Shown piece after piece: positions 622-15,690 of a stretch of 34,611 bases of DNA; positions within the stretch are counted from its first letter, which is position 1, and each line of letters begins with the position of its first letter. Under the pieces are notes generated by a model. The model was given only the letters and a program-made list of their open reading frames with translations. It was not told the origin of the DNA and ran no database searches. The DNA is taken from positions 1 to 34,611 of the forward strand of contig JASHPO010000161.1 of assembly GCA_030038075.1 (NCBI GenBank), written 5' to 3'. The position numbers were made by a program, and so were the translations under genes. The stretch comes from Nitrososphaerales archaeon. GTDB lineage: Archaea > Thermoproteota > Nitrososphaeria > Nitrososphaerales > CADDZS01.

Positions 622-920
622 CTATAGCAGTTACTTGAATACGGCCTCCTGCCCTAACCCCGTACCTTTGGACCCGATCTCTTCGAAATACCCGAATGCA
701 GCTCTTTCGCCTGATTACTTTGTGATCTACAATATTTGTAATGAACCAATTGTTATCATGGAAATAATCATTGAAAACAATAGGGGACCCCCTCGGAGGA
801 GGATCGTAGCTAGCTAATGTCTTTGGAGTTTGAGCAGGTCTTGGGTACAGGTCTTTTGATCAGGTCTTTGCAAAGAGCTGAGAACCCGAGATCCCGAGAA
901 TGTTTTTGCGATTTTGAAGA
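622..920 (+). repeat. dispersed repeat, copy A
   Basis: This stretch matches the minus strand of 15380-15690 (copy B) over about 300 bases. The best-matching core, roughly from 707 to 868, is about three quarters identical by eye. Shared landmarks in order are GTTAC(T/A)TGAAT at about 630-640, GATTACTTT then TACAATATTTGTA near 712-741, ATTGAAAAC near 770, a C/G-rich block (CCCCCT then GGAGG-like), AGCTAG.TAATGTCTTT, three CAGGTCTT motifs spaced 13 bp apart, and GAGAA.GTT.TTGCG. Copy A has a TTG where copy B has the ATG of a 60-codon frame (635-817). It ends close to the 3' end of gltX. Confidence 0.75.
835..868 (+). repeat. three CAGGTCTT motifs at 13-bp period
   Basis: The octamer CAGGTCTT occurs perfectly at 835-842, 848-855 and 861-868, a spacing of exactly 13 bp. 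The spacers GGGTA and TTGAT are not repeated. The same three-fold array with the same period occurs in copy B of the surrounding repeat. Regular short direct repeats of this kind are usually protein-binding iterons, but the ligand here is unknown. Confidence 0.8.
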
Positions 921-2716: not shown

Positions 2717-3796
2717 CTAATAATCGCGAGAGCTGAGATATTCCATTAGCGATTTAGTTACCAAGTAAGACTCTCCCTTGCTGATATGATATCTTGAAAT
2801 CATATCGTCAAACATCGAAATCGCCTTTTTTGAGAGTTTGCGCGATAATCCCTTTGCATAGTCAATTGAACCGGAATTGTGCATGCAATCGAGTATGTAT
2901 TTGACTTCCCCCAGTTCCTTTTTTTCGCGAGGCTTGGAAAGAATATCGGTTATCTTGCGTTTCTGAGCGCTATCTGAATGTGAAAGAAGATGAATGAGCA
3001 TAACCGTCCGCTTTCCTTCAAAAAGGTCACCCATAATCTCCTTTCCGTATTTCGTTTCTTCGCCCATCAAATTCAGGACATCATCAATTATCTGAAACGA
3101 TATTCCTAACTGCGTTCCGAACTCGATTGCTTCCTTCATGAGGTTCTCTGATTTGACAATTTCAAACTGCTTCTTTTGGAGAGTCGCTATGAGTATTCCA
3201 AGTCGGGCGGGAGATATGCAAGTATACCAAGCGGATTTTTTGGCCACCATAAGAAAATAATCCTCCTCTTTGATGTCCCATTTGTTTGTCGACGTCCAAG
3301 CAAGCTCCATTTGTTGCCCTTCCGTTGTCGCATTCAGCATCGATGCGAATTCTTGGAGTATTTTTATCGTGAGGTCCGACCCGAGTTTTTCCTGATTTCT
3401 TAGGAGCAATTCCCACATTTTTCCATGCAAAGCATCGCCCGCATTAATTGCAAGTTCAATTCCCACTTTCTTATGGAGAGCAGGCAACCCCCTGCGGAGG
3501 TCGGATTGATCCTCAATATCGTCGTGGATCAGTATCCAGTTCTGAAATAATTCTAGTGCTGAAGAAGTTATCAATGCGCTTTCATCTTTTCCTTCCAAGA
3601 GATTGCACCACAGTATGCACATAGATCCCCGAAGTCCCTTTCCGCCTCTGCTAGGGTAATCTCGCATCATTTCGTATAAATTGGTGATTTCCGCAGAATC
3701 ATGCCAAGCCGGCAGAAAATCCAAAACGATTCTATCGAGCCGTTTTTTGTTTCTGATGAGAAGCTCCTGCAGTCTTGCAGTCTCTAGTTGTTCCAT
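2717..3796 (-). CDS. idsA: polyprenyl (geranylgeranyl/farnesyl) diphosphate synthase
   Basis: Head-to-tail trans-prenyltransferase extending DMAPP with IPP units, probably to geranylgeranyl diphosphate for archaeal ether lipids. The first aspartate-rich motif is DDIED at residues 92-96, followed by the RRG signature at 101-103. The second aspartate-rich motif is DDVLN at 238-242, with N in place of the final D, followed by GDLFEGKRT. The 359-residue length is usual. It starts at an ATG 24 bp after ipk and precedes gltX by 41 bp, in an operon with mevalonate kinase and ipk that supplies its substrates. Chain length cannot be read safely from the sequence. Confidence 0.93.
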   Translation of the reverse strand: MEQLETARLQELLIRNKKRLDRIVLDFLPAWHDSAEITNLYEMMRDYPSRGGKGLRGSMCILWCNLLEGKDESALITSSALELFQNWILIHDDIEDQSDLRRGLPALHKKVGIELAINAGDALHGKMWELLLRNQEKLGSDLTIKILQEFASMLNATTEGQQMELAWTSTNKWDIKEEDYFLMVAKKSAWYTCISPARLGILIATLQKKQFEIVKSENLMKEAIEFGTQLGISFQIIDDVLNLMGEETKYGKEIMGDLFEGKRTVMLIHLLSHSDSAQKRKITDILSKPREKKELGEVKYILDCMHNSGSIDYAKGLSRKLSKKAISMFDDMISRYHISKGESYLVTKSLMEYLSSRDY

Positions 3797-3820
3797 TTAG
3801 ATTCAGCTCACAGTTTCGGA

Positions 3821-4642
3821 TTATATTTCAAGTGATTCCTTTCTCAGAGATGCCTTCGCATAAATCCTTGTTGACTTGACAGAATCCTGTCCCATAATCA
3901 ATGATTCCAGCCTTTCTGCCTTCCTGCCGTTCACATAATATACATTCGCACCGTGTTCAGCCATATGCATCCCAAACTCGATCTTCGCCGCTATACCGCC
4001 AGTCACGTCGAATTTCCTTTTCTTGCCCAAAAAAATCTCAGCAGAAGTGAGTTCATTGATAATTTCACCCTTCATATTTGAATTAGTGAATATTCCGTCG
4101 ACGTCCATTGCAAAAATTACCCGGTCAACGTTTCGATTTCGCACCAAGCTCATGGCTATCTGGTCTCCCGAAATAATCGAAGTTCCCCTCGGAGTTATAG
4201 AAACATTGCCAAATGATATGGGAACATATCGGCTTTGGAGGAGATTATTCAGTATGCCCTCACCTTTTTTTTCGATAGTGATTCCATCGGAAGAAAGGAA
4301 CTCTGAAGTTAGGACCGTTTTACAAGGAACACCTTCGCGCACCAGTTGATTTAGAACGAGTGAATGCAGAGCAATCATCGCCCAGGCAGTTTTTGACACT
4401 CCCTCAGTTCCAGTTTTCTTTCGAGCTGTCGAAAGACCGAATTTTGATGCATAATAATGTCCGAAGGAACCGCCTCCATGTATTATGAATAGCCTAGTTT
4501 GGTTTCCGTTTCGTAACGATTTCGCGATAGCATTTGCGGCAACCGCTATAGCTCTTCTGTTCGGTGTGAGAGGCCGGTCTTTATCAGTAATCAGGCTACC
4601 TCCCAGCTTGACTACTGTAAGTTTTGGAGTCAATTTTCCCAC
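3821..4642 (-). CDS. ipk: isopentenyl phosphate kinase
   Basis: Amino-acid-kinase-fold enzyme that phosphorylates isopentenyl phosphate to IPP, the last step of the archaeal alternative mevalonate pathway. The N-terminal glycine-rich KLGGS is at residues 12-16. The diagnostic GGGSFGH is at 56-62, whose His62 corresponds to the substrate-binding His of characterised IPKs and separates this family from glutamate 5-kinase. The sequence DVTGGIAAKI near residue 213 is the usual C-lobe signature. The start is GTG and overlaps the end of the mevalonate kinase gene by 13 bp, so the two are probably translated together. Length of 273 residues is typical. Confidence 0.95.
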   Translation of the reverse strand: MGKLTPKLTVVKLGGSLITDKDRPLTPNRRAIAVAANAIAKSLRNGNQTRLFIIHGGGSFGHYYASKFGLSTARKKTGTEGVSKTAWAMIALHSLVLNQLVREGVPCKTVLTSEFLSSDGITIEKKGEGILNNLLQSRYVPISFGNVSITPRGTSIISGDQIAMSLVRNRNVDRVIFAMDVDGIFTNSNMKGEIINELTSAEIFLGKKRKFDVTGGIAAKIEFGMHMAEHGANVYYVNGRKAERLESLIMGQDSVKSTRIYAKASLRKESLEI

Positions 4643-5568
4643 CGGAGGCCGGGCTGGGGTATCGCAGTGAAAAAACTCCAGCTGAATTTCTTAGTAGCAT
4701 ATTTTGAAAGCATGTCCATCGCCTTGGGTTTGGGGAGAGCAATCACACTTCCTCCTCCTCCAGCACAAGTCAGCTTTGCGCCTAAAACGTTCTGACCGGC
4801 GAGTTCTTCGATCAACTCGTCAAGTGAATCGTTAGACACTCCTATCCATGAAAGAGCTGCTTGTGAAATATTCATGAAAGCTCCAAGACGAGGCAGATCT
4901 CCGGCAGTTGCTGCGTTCGCTACTTCTTGGCTCAATATTGACGCAGACCGCGCTAGCGAGTCAAAAAAATTGGGGAATAGCTTCTGTTTTAGGGCAACCT
5001 TATTCACTAAGACAGACGTTCTTCTTTGCTTTCCGGAGTACACGACCAAGAAATGTAACGTTCGGGTCAAAGGTACGGACTTTGCCCCTGTGCTTCGGCT
5101 AAATAGAAGCAGCCCGCCCTGCAAACTAGATTCTACGTCTATTCCAGAAGGGTTTCCATGAACCATTTTCTCCCCTGTCATTGCGAGTTCGAAAATTTTC
5201 CGTGGTGATGGGTCGAGTCCGGCGAATTTGAGAGCCGCTGCGGATGTTGCGACGGCGACAGCAGCGGATGATCCCAATCCCGAACCCGGCGGAATTTCAG
5301 AGTCGACTGAAACAGCAATTGGGTCTACCAAATTGCCTTGTTTGCCCACATTCTTCAAAATAGCTTTCACCAGAACAAGCTTTCCGTCGTTATCCGACAT
5401 TTTCGTTTTAACATTTCCAGAAATTATGTATGAATCCTTGTAAACAGGGGAAATTGTGACCCTTGCTCTCTTGTTTATTGCGGCGGCAACAGAATGTGAC
5501 CCATGAACCACAAAATGTTCACCTGTTAGGATTATCTTGCCAGGTGCGCTGGCGGTAATTTCGTTCAA
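4630..5568 (-). CDS. mvk: mevalonate kinase
   Basis: GHMP-family kinase converting mevalonate to mevalonate 5-phosphate. The N-terminal substrate region is APGKIILTGEHFVVHG (residues 8-23). The ATP-binding GHMP motif PPGSGLGSSAA is at 93-103, and the C-terminal glycine-rich motif AGGGGS lies near residue 270. Length of 312 residues is normal for archaeal enzymes. The start is TTG in a TTGA overlap with the stop of the MEMO-family gene, and the 3' end overlaps ipk by 13 bp. With ipk and idsA alongside, the operon holds the first kinase, the last kinase and the prenyltransferase of isoprenoid synthesis; the intermediate dehydratase/decarboxylase steps are not in this window. Confidence 0.95.
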   Translation of the reverse strand: MNEITASAPGKIILTGEHFVVHGSHSVAAAINKRARVTISPVYKDSYIISGNVKTKMSDNDGKLVLVKAILKNVGKQGNLVDPIAVSVDSEIPPGSGLGSSAAVAVATSAAALKFAGLDPSPRKIFELAMTGEKMVHGNPSGIDVESSLQGGLLLFSRSTGAKSVPLTRTLHFLVVYSGKQRRTSVLVNKVALKQKLFPNFFDSLARSASILSQEVANAATAGDLPRLGAFMNISQAALSWIGVSNDSLDELIEELAGQNVLGAKLTCAGGGGSVIALPKPKAMDMLSKYATKKFSWSFFTAIPQPGLRWEN

Positions 5569-12377: not shown

Positions 12378-12539
12378 CTCCGCGCTCGGCCTCAATAGGC
12401 GCATTCTTCTCACTCTGCCACACTTTTCGCACCTGAAATTCGCGTAACCCCGTGGGTTTCTCACGTTTTCAACGTTGAAGAAATTTTTTGTCCTGGTCAT
12501 GCATCGCTCGCAAAACCTGATTTCGAACTGTTCCGACAT
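12366..12539 (-). CDS. 57-residue zinc-ribbon protein coupled to lhr
   Basis: A small gene. It starts with ATG at 12539, overlapping the lhr stop as TAATG, and ends at a TGA at 12366-12368, giving 57 residues. It carries two CxxC knuckles, Cys10/Cys13 (FCERC) and Cys37/Cys40 (RCEKCGRV), separated by 23 residues, consistent with a single zinc ribbon, and is rich in Arg/Lys (RVRRMRLLRP). Such small basic zinc ribbons commonly bind nucleic acid or a protein partner. The overlapping start argues that its product is made with Lhr. Its end overlaps the convergent CinA-domain gene by 12 bp. I do not recognise a named family. Confidence 0.75.
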   Translation of the reverse strand: MSEQFEIRFCERCMTRTKNFFNVENVRNPRGYANFRCEKCGRVRRMRLLRPSAESSY

Positions 12540-15355
12540 TACTGATTCCAGTACTTTTTTGTCTCGATGAACTTGAGCTTTGCTTCCAGAAGGTCATCGT
12601 AGAACTCTTCGTCGGATTCGTGCATCCTTGATAGAACCCTCGCAGCCATCTGCGGGCCGATTCCGTATACCGACTGGGCTATTACTCCCTTCTTGCCGTA
12701 AGAGAGTACAATGTCAGCGGATCTTCTTGTCTTTGCAATGATTTCTTTTTCCTCAGGTGACAGCGTCTGCCCGGCCTTTTTCTTCAAAAGAGCACTCGTA
12801 GCAAATCTTGCCCCGTAAAACAAGACTGCGAGCAGTTTCGAGTCGCACTTCTCGCATTTCGGGATTTCTGGAAGATCTCCTACCCTCTGGAATTCCTTGA
12901 GCTTCGCGCATTCGAGGCAGAGCAGGCTAACGACCTCCTTGCCAGCGTTTGTCTTCATCGAATCAACAGAGTTTGTGCTCGCTTCTGCGTAATCTTCACT
13001 CTCGGCGTATCTTGAAAATATGTACATCGCGAGCGCGCTGGGTCGTTCGGTGTAAACGCTAACGAGCTCGGTCTTGCCTTCGCTACACTCTCTTAGGATC
13101 TCAGCTGCCCTAGGAATGTCGATTTTTGTGGCAAAGGCTTCCCTTAGCGTTTCGTCATAGATTGGCGTGAACCTGAATTTTACTCCGAGCTCCTTCAGCG
13201 CGTCTCCGGAAAGCATCCTGCCGCGCTTCAGGGCGCCGAACCTTTCCGCGATGAACTTCATCTCGTAGCCGAATGGAAAGTGCTTTCGGATGACAGCGTC
13301 CAGAAAACCGGAGACCGTAGAGTCGTAGTGGAAGAGCTTTTCCACGATTTCTTGGAGCTCGAATTCCTCCGTCGACAGTTCCAATAGAATCCTGTAGCCG
13401 TCGCTCCACCAGCTTCTGATAAGTCCGCCCATCCGCAGAAGCCTCTCCTCAAACAGTTCTCCAAGAGTCGAATTGACCCTGTCACCCGCCGACGTATGGA
13501 TCACGAAATAATTCTTGAATCTCTCGACAACAATTCTTTGCTCCGTCGGAACCTTCGATAACTGGCTCTGGTTTCTGATTTCGTCAATTACGGAGTCCCT
13601 TGCGAATTTTTCAACTCTCGAGAAGATTTCCGAATCCAAGACGCCTTTGCCCTGAAGCGATTGTTCGATCTTCCTCCGCTCTGAACCGACTTTCATTGCA
13701 ACAGATTCAGGTATGGGAATCAATTCGCCGTCCCAGCCCGGAACGGCCGCTTCCCTGTCCTGAACCGGCGTGACGTACACATTTTCCTCTTGAATCGACT
13801 CTATTTCCCAGGCTTTTCCCTTTATGACGAAGTGAAGGCCAACCTTTGCGTGGAGAATCATGAACTCTTCGCCCAGGATGCCGATCTTTTTCTGGGTCGT
13901 CAGGTCAATGACGGAGTATCTCCTTTCATCCCGAATTGTCGAGAGGTTTTGAAGATAATATTCCCTGCACTTTCGTCTCCTGATTATTCTTTCCCCGGAA
14001 AGCGAAAGGTAGCCCATCTTTTCCATGAACTTTACAACTGAGAGTAGATCGTTTTTCTCTAGGGAGTGAAATGAATAGGAAACCTTCGCGATTTTCAAAA
14101 TCTCTTCTAAGTCAATTTCGCTGTTTTCCATGAGCAATCCTGCGATCTGGTGGGAAAGAACATCCAGCGGGGCCAGATGTATGGCCGTGGGTTCCAGATT
14201 TCGCAAGAGTGCTTCCCGGGATATTGCGATCGATTCGGTTGCGTCTTCCGGGCTCACCGAAAGAATAATGCCCTCGGATTTGCGAGATAAGCTGTGTCCC
14301 GACCTTCCTACTCTCTGGACGAGCGAGTTTACCTGCCTCGGCGACATGTACTGAATTACGAGATCTACAGCGCCGATGTCAATTCCCAATTCTAGAGTCG
14401 CGGTACAAACCAACGCCCTTGTTTTTCCTTCCTTGAAATCCTGCTCGGCCCTTTCTCTTTCCTCTCTGGGAAGCGAACCGTGGTGAACTCCGACCTTGAC
14501 TCCCAGCATCACGAGCCTTGAGCAAAGTTCTTCGGCGATCGTTCTGCTGTTCACGAAGATCAGCGTCCTGTCATGGCCTTCTACAAGATCTATGATCCTC
14601 TGTATTCTCGAAACGGTCTGTGGAGAGACGAACAGCTCCCTTGCCTGCATCTCGTCTTCCCTTGTCGGCTTTGGGAACTCGATCGAGTAATCCACGAGCT
14701 TTGAAATTTTGCTGGTGTCTACAATCCGAAACTTCCTTCCTGTGCCGCAGAGAAATTTTCCGATCTCTTCGGGATTTGCAACCGTCGCGGAGAGGCCAAT
14801 CCTCTGAATTTTCTTTCCGACCACCCGCTCAAGGCGTTCCAGTCCGAAGGAGAGCTGCGATCCTCTCCTGTCGGAAGCGAGATGATGAATCTCGTCGATA
14901 ACAACGTGCCTTACGCTCTTCAGATTCGTGCGCAGCCTCGAACCGATTAAGAGTACCTGAAGAGTTTCGGGTGTGGTAATTAGAATGTCCGGGGGATTTA
15001 GCGCCTGCTTTCTCCTTTCGCTTTGAGGAGTGTCGCCATGCCTTACTTCTACCGATAGTCCCAAGTGCTTTGCCCACATCTGGACCCTCTTCAGCATGTC
15101 CCTGTTCAGGGCTCGCAGCGGCGTCACGTAGAGGGCCTTTATTCCCTGCTCTCTTGTTTCACTCCTTATCTTCTCAAAGACCGGTAAAAGCGCAGCTTCG
15201 GTCTTTCCCGATCCGGTTGGAGAAAGTATCAGAACGTCTTCTCCGCCGAGTATTGCAGGAATTGCTTCCGTTTGAACGGGAGTTTCCTTCTCAAAGCCCA
15301 GTTCAGATATTACTTTCCGGAGATCGTCGGAGAGAAGCTCAAACTTGGATTCCAT
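12539..15355 (-). CDS. lhr: Lhr-type superfamily 2 DNA helicase
   Basis: Large ATP-dependent 3'-5' helicase of 938 residues, close to the usual size of archaeal Lhr enzymes thought to act in DNA repair. Motif I is SPTGSGKT (45-52), motif II is DEIH (154-157), motif III is SAT (189-191), and the C-lobe motifs TATLELGIDIGAVDLVI and QRVGRSGHS follow. The long C-terminal part is the Lhr winged-helix/barrel region. Near the end a zinc ribbon is visible with Cys813, Cys816, Cys834 and Cys837, followed by a GIGPQMAARVL helical segment. It starts with ATG directly after repeat copy B, and its stop overlaps the start of a small zinc-ribbon gene. Confidence 0.95.
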   Translation of the reverse strand: MESKFELLSDDLRKVISELGFEKETPVQTEAIPAILGGEDVLILSPTGSGKTEAALLPVFEKIRSETREQGIKALYVTPLRALNRDMLKRVQMWAKHLGLSVEVRHGDTPQSERRKQALNPPDILITTPETLQVLLIGSRLRTNLKSVRHVVIDEIHHLASDRRGSQLSFGLERLERVVGKKIQRIGLSATVANPEEIGKFLCGTGRKFRIVDTSKISKLVDYSIEFPKPTREDEMQARELFVSPQTVSRIQRIIDLVEGHDRTLIFVNSRTIAEELCSRLVMLGVKVGVHHGSLPREERERAEQDFKEGKTRALVCTATLELGIDIGAVDLVIQYMSPRQVNSLVQRVGRSGHSLSRKSEGIILSVSPEDATESIAISREALLRNLEPTAIHLAPLDVLSHQIAGLLMENSEIDLEEILKIAKVSYSFHSLEKNDLLSVVKFMEKMGYLSLSGERIIRRRKCREYYLQNLSTIRDERRYSVIDLTTQKKIGILGEEFMILHAKVGLHFVIKGKAWEIESIQEENVYVTPVQDREAAVPGWDGELIPIPESVAMKVGSERRKIEQSLQGKGVLDSEIFSRVEKFARDSVIDEIRNQSQLSKVPTEQRIVVERFKNYFVIHTSAGDRVNSTLGELFEERLLRMGGLIRSWWSDGYRILLELSTEEFELQEIVEKLFHYDSTVSGFLDAVIRKHFPFGYEMKFIAERFGALKRGRMLSGDALKELGVKFRFTPIYDETLREAFATKIDIPRAAEILRECSEGKTELVSVYTERPSALAMYIFSRYAESEDYAEASTNSVDSMKTNAGKEVVSLLCLECAKLKEFQRVGDLPEIPKCEKCDSKLLAVLFYGARFATSALLKKKAGQTLSPEEKEIIAKTRRSADIVLSYGKKGVIAQSVYGIGPQMAARVLSRMHESDEEFYDDLLEAKLKFIETKKYWNQ

Positions 15356-15379: not shown

Positions 15380-15690
15380 TCTTTGAAATGCGCAACAACT
15401 TTCTCGACGTTTGACGAGACATTTTTCTTGAGAAGACCTGAAAAGAAGACCTGTACCCGAGACCTGCCCTAACTCGAAAGACATTATCTAGCTCCACCCC
15501 TCCCCCTAGGGGGTACCCTCTCGTTTTCAATTGATAATTGCATGATTACCATTGATTTTATACAAATATTGTAATTCATAAAGTAATCCAGCCTTGGCAT
15601 TAAATTCAGGTATTCGGGTATGCGGGTCTGGGGCAAAAACGCGGGTACAGGCTTTAGGGCGGCAGTCGGATTCATGTAACAGCTAACGCG
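15380..15690 (-). repeat. dispersed repeat, copy B
   Basis: The minus strand matches 622-920 (copy A) over its whole length, with a core about three quarters identical by eye. A 63-codon frame starts with ATG at 15675 and ends at 15484; its C-terminal 34 codons align without gaps to those of copy A (about 19 identical residues: DYF..YNIC...VIM...IEN.R.PPR). A second frame begins at the overlapping TAATG in both copies and shares MS.E..QV.GTGLL.RS.Q. A TATA element lies upstream at 15711-15717. Nucleotide differences in the aligned frame are not concentrated in third codon positions, so the repeat may be non-coding. Its 3' end lies about 25 bp before lhr. Confidence 0.75.
15433..15466 (-). repeat. 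three CAGGTCT motifs at 13-bp period (copy B)
   Basis: On the plus strand AGACCTG lies at 434-440, 447-453 and 460-466 of the 15,000 block, exactly 13 bp apart, reading CAGGTCT on the minus strand. Period and number match the array at 835-868, while the spacers differ. The array ends about 78 bp upstream of the lhr start codon. Confidence 0.8.

Follow-up and report, generated by a model that had tools for sequence, protein, structure and literature searches.

Intergenic repeats that are scattered over the genomes of uncultured archaea tend to be written off as remnants of mobile elements in decay. Transposons of the Tn7/Mu type (e.g. TnsB sites) carry three short sites at each end, which are inverted between the ends and regularly spaced at one end and irregularly at the other. 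The REP/BIME and REPIN sequences of bacteria (PMC1525189; PMC3116915) are dispersed, extragenic, palindromic and species-specific and are targets of insertion sequences (IS). Archaeal and bacterial MITEs (see PMC10969869 for a review) are short, non-coding, intergenic elements of high copy number with arms in inverted orientation.

The element described here was analysed in a window of 34,611 bp, which corresponds to contig C68 in the metagenome-assembled genome of an archaeon (2.6 Mb in 170 contigs, with a completeness of 86%). It shares the listed properties of REP sequences and MITEs. Like REP/BIME it is intergenic, occurs in many copies and contains a short GC-rich palindrome (core CCCCCTAGGGGG, 20 exact sites in the genome); however, REP/BIME units are tetranucleotide-tagged, linked to TnpA-REP and measure 20–40 bp, whereas the present unit is about 230–300 bp long, forms no alternating arrays and has inverted iteron arms at fixed geometry. 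Like MITEs it is dispersed, non-coding and multi-copy, but no perfect terminal repeat, target duplication or parent transposase was found, and its interior is constrained in length. By analogy, its arms may be compared to Tn7/Mu-type ends, as arrays of one motif with three short sites per arm are inverted between the two sides, one arm being regular and the other irregular. In contrast to Tn7-like ends, with their TnsB-type transposase and TGT..ACA termini, the element has a fixed core of 148 nt, no cargo, no apparent transposase and no definable terminal nucleotides.

Anatomy of the element and its two copies in the window

The features of both copies are listed below.

622..909, + strand: copy 1 of the dispersed element (profile match 645–909; longer left homology from about 622)
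662..692, + strand: left arm of copy 1 (GTACC 662–666, GGACC 670–674, ATACC 688–692; spacing 8 and 18)
728..740, + strand: AT-rich dyad of copy 1, TACAATATTTGTA
783..796, + strand: GC palindrome of copy 1, GGGGACCCCCTCGG; the same site is taken by an IS in other copies
807..830, + strand: conserved block of copy 1, TAGCTAGCTAATGTCTTTGGAGTT
835..867, + strand: right arm of copy 1 (CAGGTCT at 835, 848 and 861; 13-bp period)
868..909, + strand: variable linker and 3′ module of copy 1
15382..15690, − strand: copy 2 of the dispersed element
15609..15648, − strand: left arm of copy 2 (GTACC 15648, AGACC 15629, ATACC 15621, ATACC 15613; spacing 19, 8 and 8)
15561..15573, − strand: AT-rich dyad of copy 2, TACAATATTTGTA
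15502..15518, − strand: GC palindrome of copy 2, GGGTACCCCCTAGGGGG
15434..15466, − strand: right arm of copy 2 (CAGGTCT at 15466, 15453 and 15440; 13-bp period)
15382..15433, − strand: linker and 3′ module of copy 2, terminating in TCTCGTCAAACGTCGAGA...GATG

The original prediction had placed two copies with three CAGGTCT motifs each at these sites, and this was exact: CAGGTCT-N6-CAGGTCT-N6-CAGGTCT is present without mismatch at 835–867 (+) and 15434–15466 (−), is absent from the rest of the window and did not occur in 100 shuffles of the sequence. The predicted common length of about 300 bp was approached by the family profile, which stretches similarity to about 265–273 bp per copy, whereas direct comparison of the two copies yielded 80% over 156 bp (713–868 vs 15433–15588). 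The neighbouring genes had been named correctly. Copy 1 adjoins the 3′ end of an archaeal-type gltX (933–2675, −), and copy 2 lies about 25 bp upstream of the lhr ATG (15355, −). Archaeal GltX and an isopentenyl phosphate kinase scored above the NCBIfam cut-offs and mark the source as an archaeon. A paralogue of the Lhr-type helicase gene (window 12539–15355) is present at L041 613–1815 (40% identical); each of the two is located downstream of an element copy, which is possibly a coincidence.

From 5′ to 3′ the element consists of a 5′ module, the left arm, the dyad, an AT-rich variable stretch, GGGGTACCCCCTAGGGGG, a G-rich run with AGCTAGCTAATGTCTTTCGAG, the right array, a linker and a 3′ module. 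Several 5′ modules occur; type A is TAGCAGTCACTTAAATAC..GCCTCCTGCCCTAAC, whereas in type B GCCCTAAT is preceded, at about 18 nt, by a TTAATTT-N-CTTTATAT-like sequence. The right arm contains AGGTCT (within CAGGTCT) at positions 0, 13 and 26 and GGTAC at position 8. The left arm carries three [T/G]ACC[T/C] motifs (GTACC/AGACC), which match the right motif as its reverse complement, in slots at 0, 8 or 18, and 26 bp, with the inner motif about 40 bp before the AT-rich dyad (TRCAANNNTTGYA in the family). A total of 84 left motifs were counted in 32 copies, compared to 12.9 ± 3.2 in shuffles, and motifs in the other orientation amounted to 0.03 per copy. The left-arm motifs of copy 1 are likewise inverted relative to its own right array. 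Thus, the claim that no terminal inverted repeat is visible holds for a perfect one, but the left arm does contain the inverted counterpart of the array. The arms form imperfect inverted repeats (motifs at 0/18/26), and exact termini are not definable. The right array is followed by a linker of varying length and then by one of two 3′ modules. In most copies a 3′ module of about 40–70 bp is present beyond the third CAGGTCT, which had been proposed as the end of the element.

Size and distribution of the family

Searching the whole genome with either window copy as query retrieved at least 40 matches. A profile built from 34 copies detected 54 places in the 2.6-Mb genome, of which about 35 are near-complete over the 148-nt core and the others partial. 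A repeat regarded as two-copy is therefore a large family. The flanks of the 54 places are unrelated and the orientation of neighbouring genes is mixed. Since the assembly is fragmented, with many of the copies located where a contig ends and some having one flank in common but not the other, a few copies may be chimaeric. Copies in which one flank or arm is common and the other different were seen in L025/L041/L129, L002 and L016, L019 and L028, and L010 and L018, frequently at the end of a contig; they may reflect gene conversion, a mixture of strains or chimaeric assembly.

The search in genome and relatives that had been suggested yielded the further copies within the genome, but no full copy in relatives. 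The family consensus found no full match by blastn in 120 relatives. No profile match was obtained in congener G002 or in six genomes of the same family, while congener G001 showed one weak match to the core (E = 2.7e-4); the profile with stricter filters had the same outcome in a larger set of 200 relatives. A pattern scan of 84,980 GTDB species did not reveal the element; its one match, in Flavobacterium, was dismissed as a chance match. An origin from a phage, plasmid or virus was rejected, as viral contigs, phages and plasmids gave no match to the element. At the sensitivity used the element is confined to one archaeal species.

Congener G001 has a dispersed family of its own around the same CCCCCTAGGGGG palindrome, with eight sites (AGGGCCCCCTAGGGGGTCATNSCAWGCGGGGGGAG; L139, L142, L144, L146, L148, L150, L152, L154) and differing surroundings. 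According to this, palindromic elements that change rapidly seem to be present in the genus, and the present family would be one amplified version of them. One copy of the G001 family lies upstream of a DRG GTPase gene, where the genome of the window also has an element, although the gene order is otherwise different. Because gene order around lhr and the DRG GTPase gene differs in the congeners, no clean empty site is readable.

Conservation and fixed geometry of the core

Scoring the alignment of 34 copies, as had been proposed, supported the special status of motif and period in part: the CAGGTCT motifs contain 1.84 bits per column compared to 1.41 bits in the spacers, and 28 of the 34 copies keep the three motifs at exactly 13 bp. 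The TRCAANNNTTGYA, GC palindrome and AGCTAGCTAATGTCTTTCG blocks are kept as well as the iterons. The core is exactly 148 nt long in 27 of the 34 copies, and the others deviate from this length by a single nucleotide (147 or 149 nt), although the mean pairwise identity is only 78%.

Compared to the consensus, the 148-nt cores of the 34 copies have accumulated 723 substitutions and six indel events, of which one lies outside the G/C run and the other five within it. In a tree of the copies about 417 substitutions fall on terminal branches, with a median terminal branch of 0.087 substitutions per site. If neutral substitution-to-indel ratios of 20:1 to 10:1 are assumed, 21–42 indels are expected on these branches, and even at 20:1 the probability of six or fewer is 1e-4. 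In the same copies length is free to vary on either side of the core, in the linker that follows the array and in the region preceding the left arm. Indels thus do occur, and these outer regions serve as an internal control for the core. With few core indels despite many substitutions on terminal branches, the copies look individually constrained in geometry. Gene conversion or chimaeric assembly blurs the tree and may inflate terminal divergence, but would not remove indels. Passive decay is hard to square with 723 substitutions and six core indels.

The original prediction of a bound protein or RNA rather than passive duplication is supported in part by the motif conservation, the few indels and the quantised left arm; other blocks, however, are kept equally well, the size of the family had been underestimated and the inverted left arm overlooked. 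The combination of plentiful substitutions with hardly changing spacing is a signature that is open to experimental test.

Proposed nucleoprotein complex

We tentatively favour a recently amplified non-autonomous element, the inverted multi-site arms of which would assemble a nucleoprotein complex of fixed geometry. A putative DNA-binding protein with sequence specificity, possibly a transposase or a domesticated derivative of one, would occupy both arms, and the bound arms would be bridged over the core with the dyad and the GC palindrome held between them, so that the geometry must be exact. Binding and bridging of the arms by one protein is suggested by the inverted fixed arrays, the two positions of the middle left motif and the spacing that is kept despite changes of the letters. 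The middle left motif is found at 8 or 18; these two positions differ by about one turn of the helix, as would be expected if a protein bound to a single face of the DNA. The approximately 50 elements are probably landing sites for such a protein, and less likely RNA genes.

That the element reached about 50 unrelated sites within a single genus points to mobility in the past. The family may therefore have spread as a non-autonomous mobile element whose copies would still be held to the geometry. As transposition does not call for a constant spacing of the two transposon ends, the fixed core length would have to stem from another use of the complex. Either the complex would have another function, or the interior itself would be part of the recognised structure. 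Comparison of flanks gave no indication of a target-site duplication (match 5.70 vs 5.75 ± 0.15 for swapped flanks, with element boundaries that are only approximate), and no recurrent neighbour gene that could represent a mobilising enzyme or parent transposon was found around the copies. Arm binding alone leaves the GC palindrome and the AGCTAGCTAATGTCTTTCG block unexplained. Counting against a reading as DNA site, TATA-like stretches precede some copies and the purine-rich strand could pair with UGUCUUUC.

A broader interpretation, which we regard as rather doubtful, is a genome-wide lineage-specific system in which about 50 docking sites of fixed geometry, as looped nucleoprotein complexes or else as about 50 paralogous structured RNAs, would have been newly amplified within the genus and selected at each locus. 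Such a system would serve to organise the chromosome or to regulate genes. Provided that the copies have a function, about fifty new sites with an architectural or regulatory role would have been gained by one archaeal species within its genus.

Alternative explanations

A protein-coding family was rejected because of stops in all frames of both strands and the lack of codon-phase or third-position bias. This also applies to in-frame stretches such as ELANVFRVRAGLGYRSFDQVF and MSFELGQVLGTGLLIRSS; some copies hit a stop at the fourth codon. A function as 5′ leader of downstream genes was rejected as well, as neighbours are found in all orientations and do not include a recurring gene family.

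The main alternative, a family of multi-copy structured non-coding RNA genes, is possible but on the unlikely side. A TATA promoter preceding GCCCTAA would drive transcription of each copy, and the ACC motifs of the left arm and GGU motifs of the right arm would form a long-range stem around the conserved core. The constant length and the strongly conserved core blocks would suit such an RNA, and TTAATTT-N-CTTTATAT-like stretches precede GCCCTAAT by about 18 nt in some copies with otherwise unrelated flanks; the distance from TATA to GCCCTAA is nevertheless unequal between the two 5′ types. The arms are complementary (about 17 bp of near-perfect pairing in one copy; duplex energies of −17 to −42 kcal/mol), but a long-range stem was rejected for lack of covariation: the pairing count equals that of the shuffled control (covariation 0.045 vs 0.045), and the two arms of a copy do not pair better with each other than with arms swapped between copies (p = 0.15). 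Single copies folded as a whole no better than shuffles (z = 0.15 and 0.10), and no known RNA in Rfam matches the element. In one predicted helix, GGRGGRG:UGUCUUUC, changes opposite U are purine-only, which keeps the RNA alternative alive. A partial match to archaeal SRP RNA (L012:1–191, −; 34.4 bits, below the gathering score and cut by the end of the stretch) falls outside the element.

It is improbable that the copies represent an ordinary MITE or REP-like family, once mobile and now neutral, which owes its regularity to recent expansion from few master copies. The many intergenic copies, their restriction to one species, the imperfect inverted arms and the subfamilies with differing 5′ and 3′ modules are what such a family would show. 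However, the terminal branches are long but almost free of indels, conservation is patchy and motif-centred rather than uniform, and the flank comparison did not reveal a target duplication.

Replication-related sites, in which CATTGAAAAC-N-GGGG would be a degenerate origin recognition box (ORB) for Orc1/Cdc6, are very improbable: the elements resemble archaeal ORBs (TCCAGTGGAAA dyad plus G-string; CAGTGGAAACGAAGGGG in the boxes upstream of cdc6 of this organism) in a dyad-plus-G-string stretch with a partial match, the best one lying at one position in 33 of 34 elements with 3–6 of 17 mismatches (mostly 7–8 in shuffles), but runs of G make such matches look better than they are, all aligned copies have TGA in place of the TGG of the box, the profile reaches only E = 0.22 at the origin, and unlike ORBs the element has about 50 copies, with iterons and arms that are unrelated to the origin and missing from it. 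The probable replication origin itself is located at L168:3320–3500 upstream of cdc6/orc1 (3671–4897) and contains the origin-box-like sequences CAGTGGAAACGAAGGGG, CAGTGGAAGGAAAGGGG and CAGTGGAAAGAAAC.

Insertion sequences within the GC palindrome

In eight copies (L057, L059, L060, L061, L062, L063, L130, L132) the sequence is broken at the same point, GGTACCCCC(T/C)A^GGGG, by an end of one IS6/IS240-type IS family, and all eight identifiable IS ends lie at this single position of the palindrome. They represent at least four independent insertions, since an interrupted copy may have been split over two contigs and so have contributed two of these halves. The transposase belongs to PF13610 and reached 120.4 bits with the IS6 model (cut-off 125). 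The junctions, the two ends of which come from different contigs, would fit a 4-bp CCTA duplication. Apart from degenerate relatives of the transposase (C139, C94, C102), which are not in the element, no IS ends were found outside the element. The repeat was rejected as part of an IS6-type element, because the IS has its own ends, unlike those of the repeat, and sits inside it.

The IS families described as targeting REP sequences are IS3, IS110, IS4, IS256 and IS5 (PMC1525189), whereas the present one is IS6-type and would add a family to this set. Furthermore, five right half-copies (L133, L134, L135, L136, L137) were observed, most of which begin at or near the centre of the palindrome without a visible IS; they are possibly scars of IS-mediated deletion.
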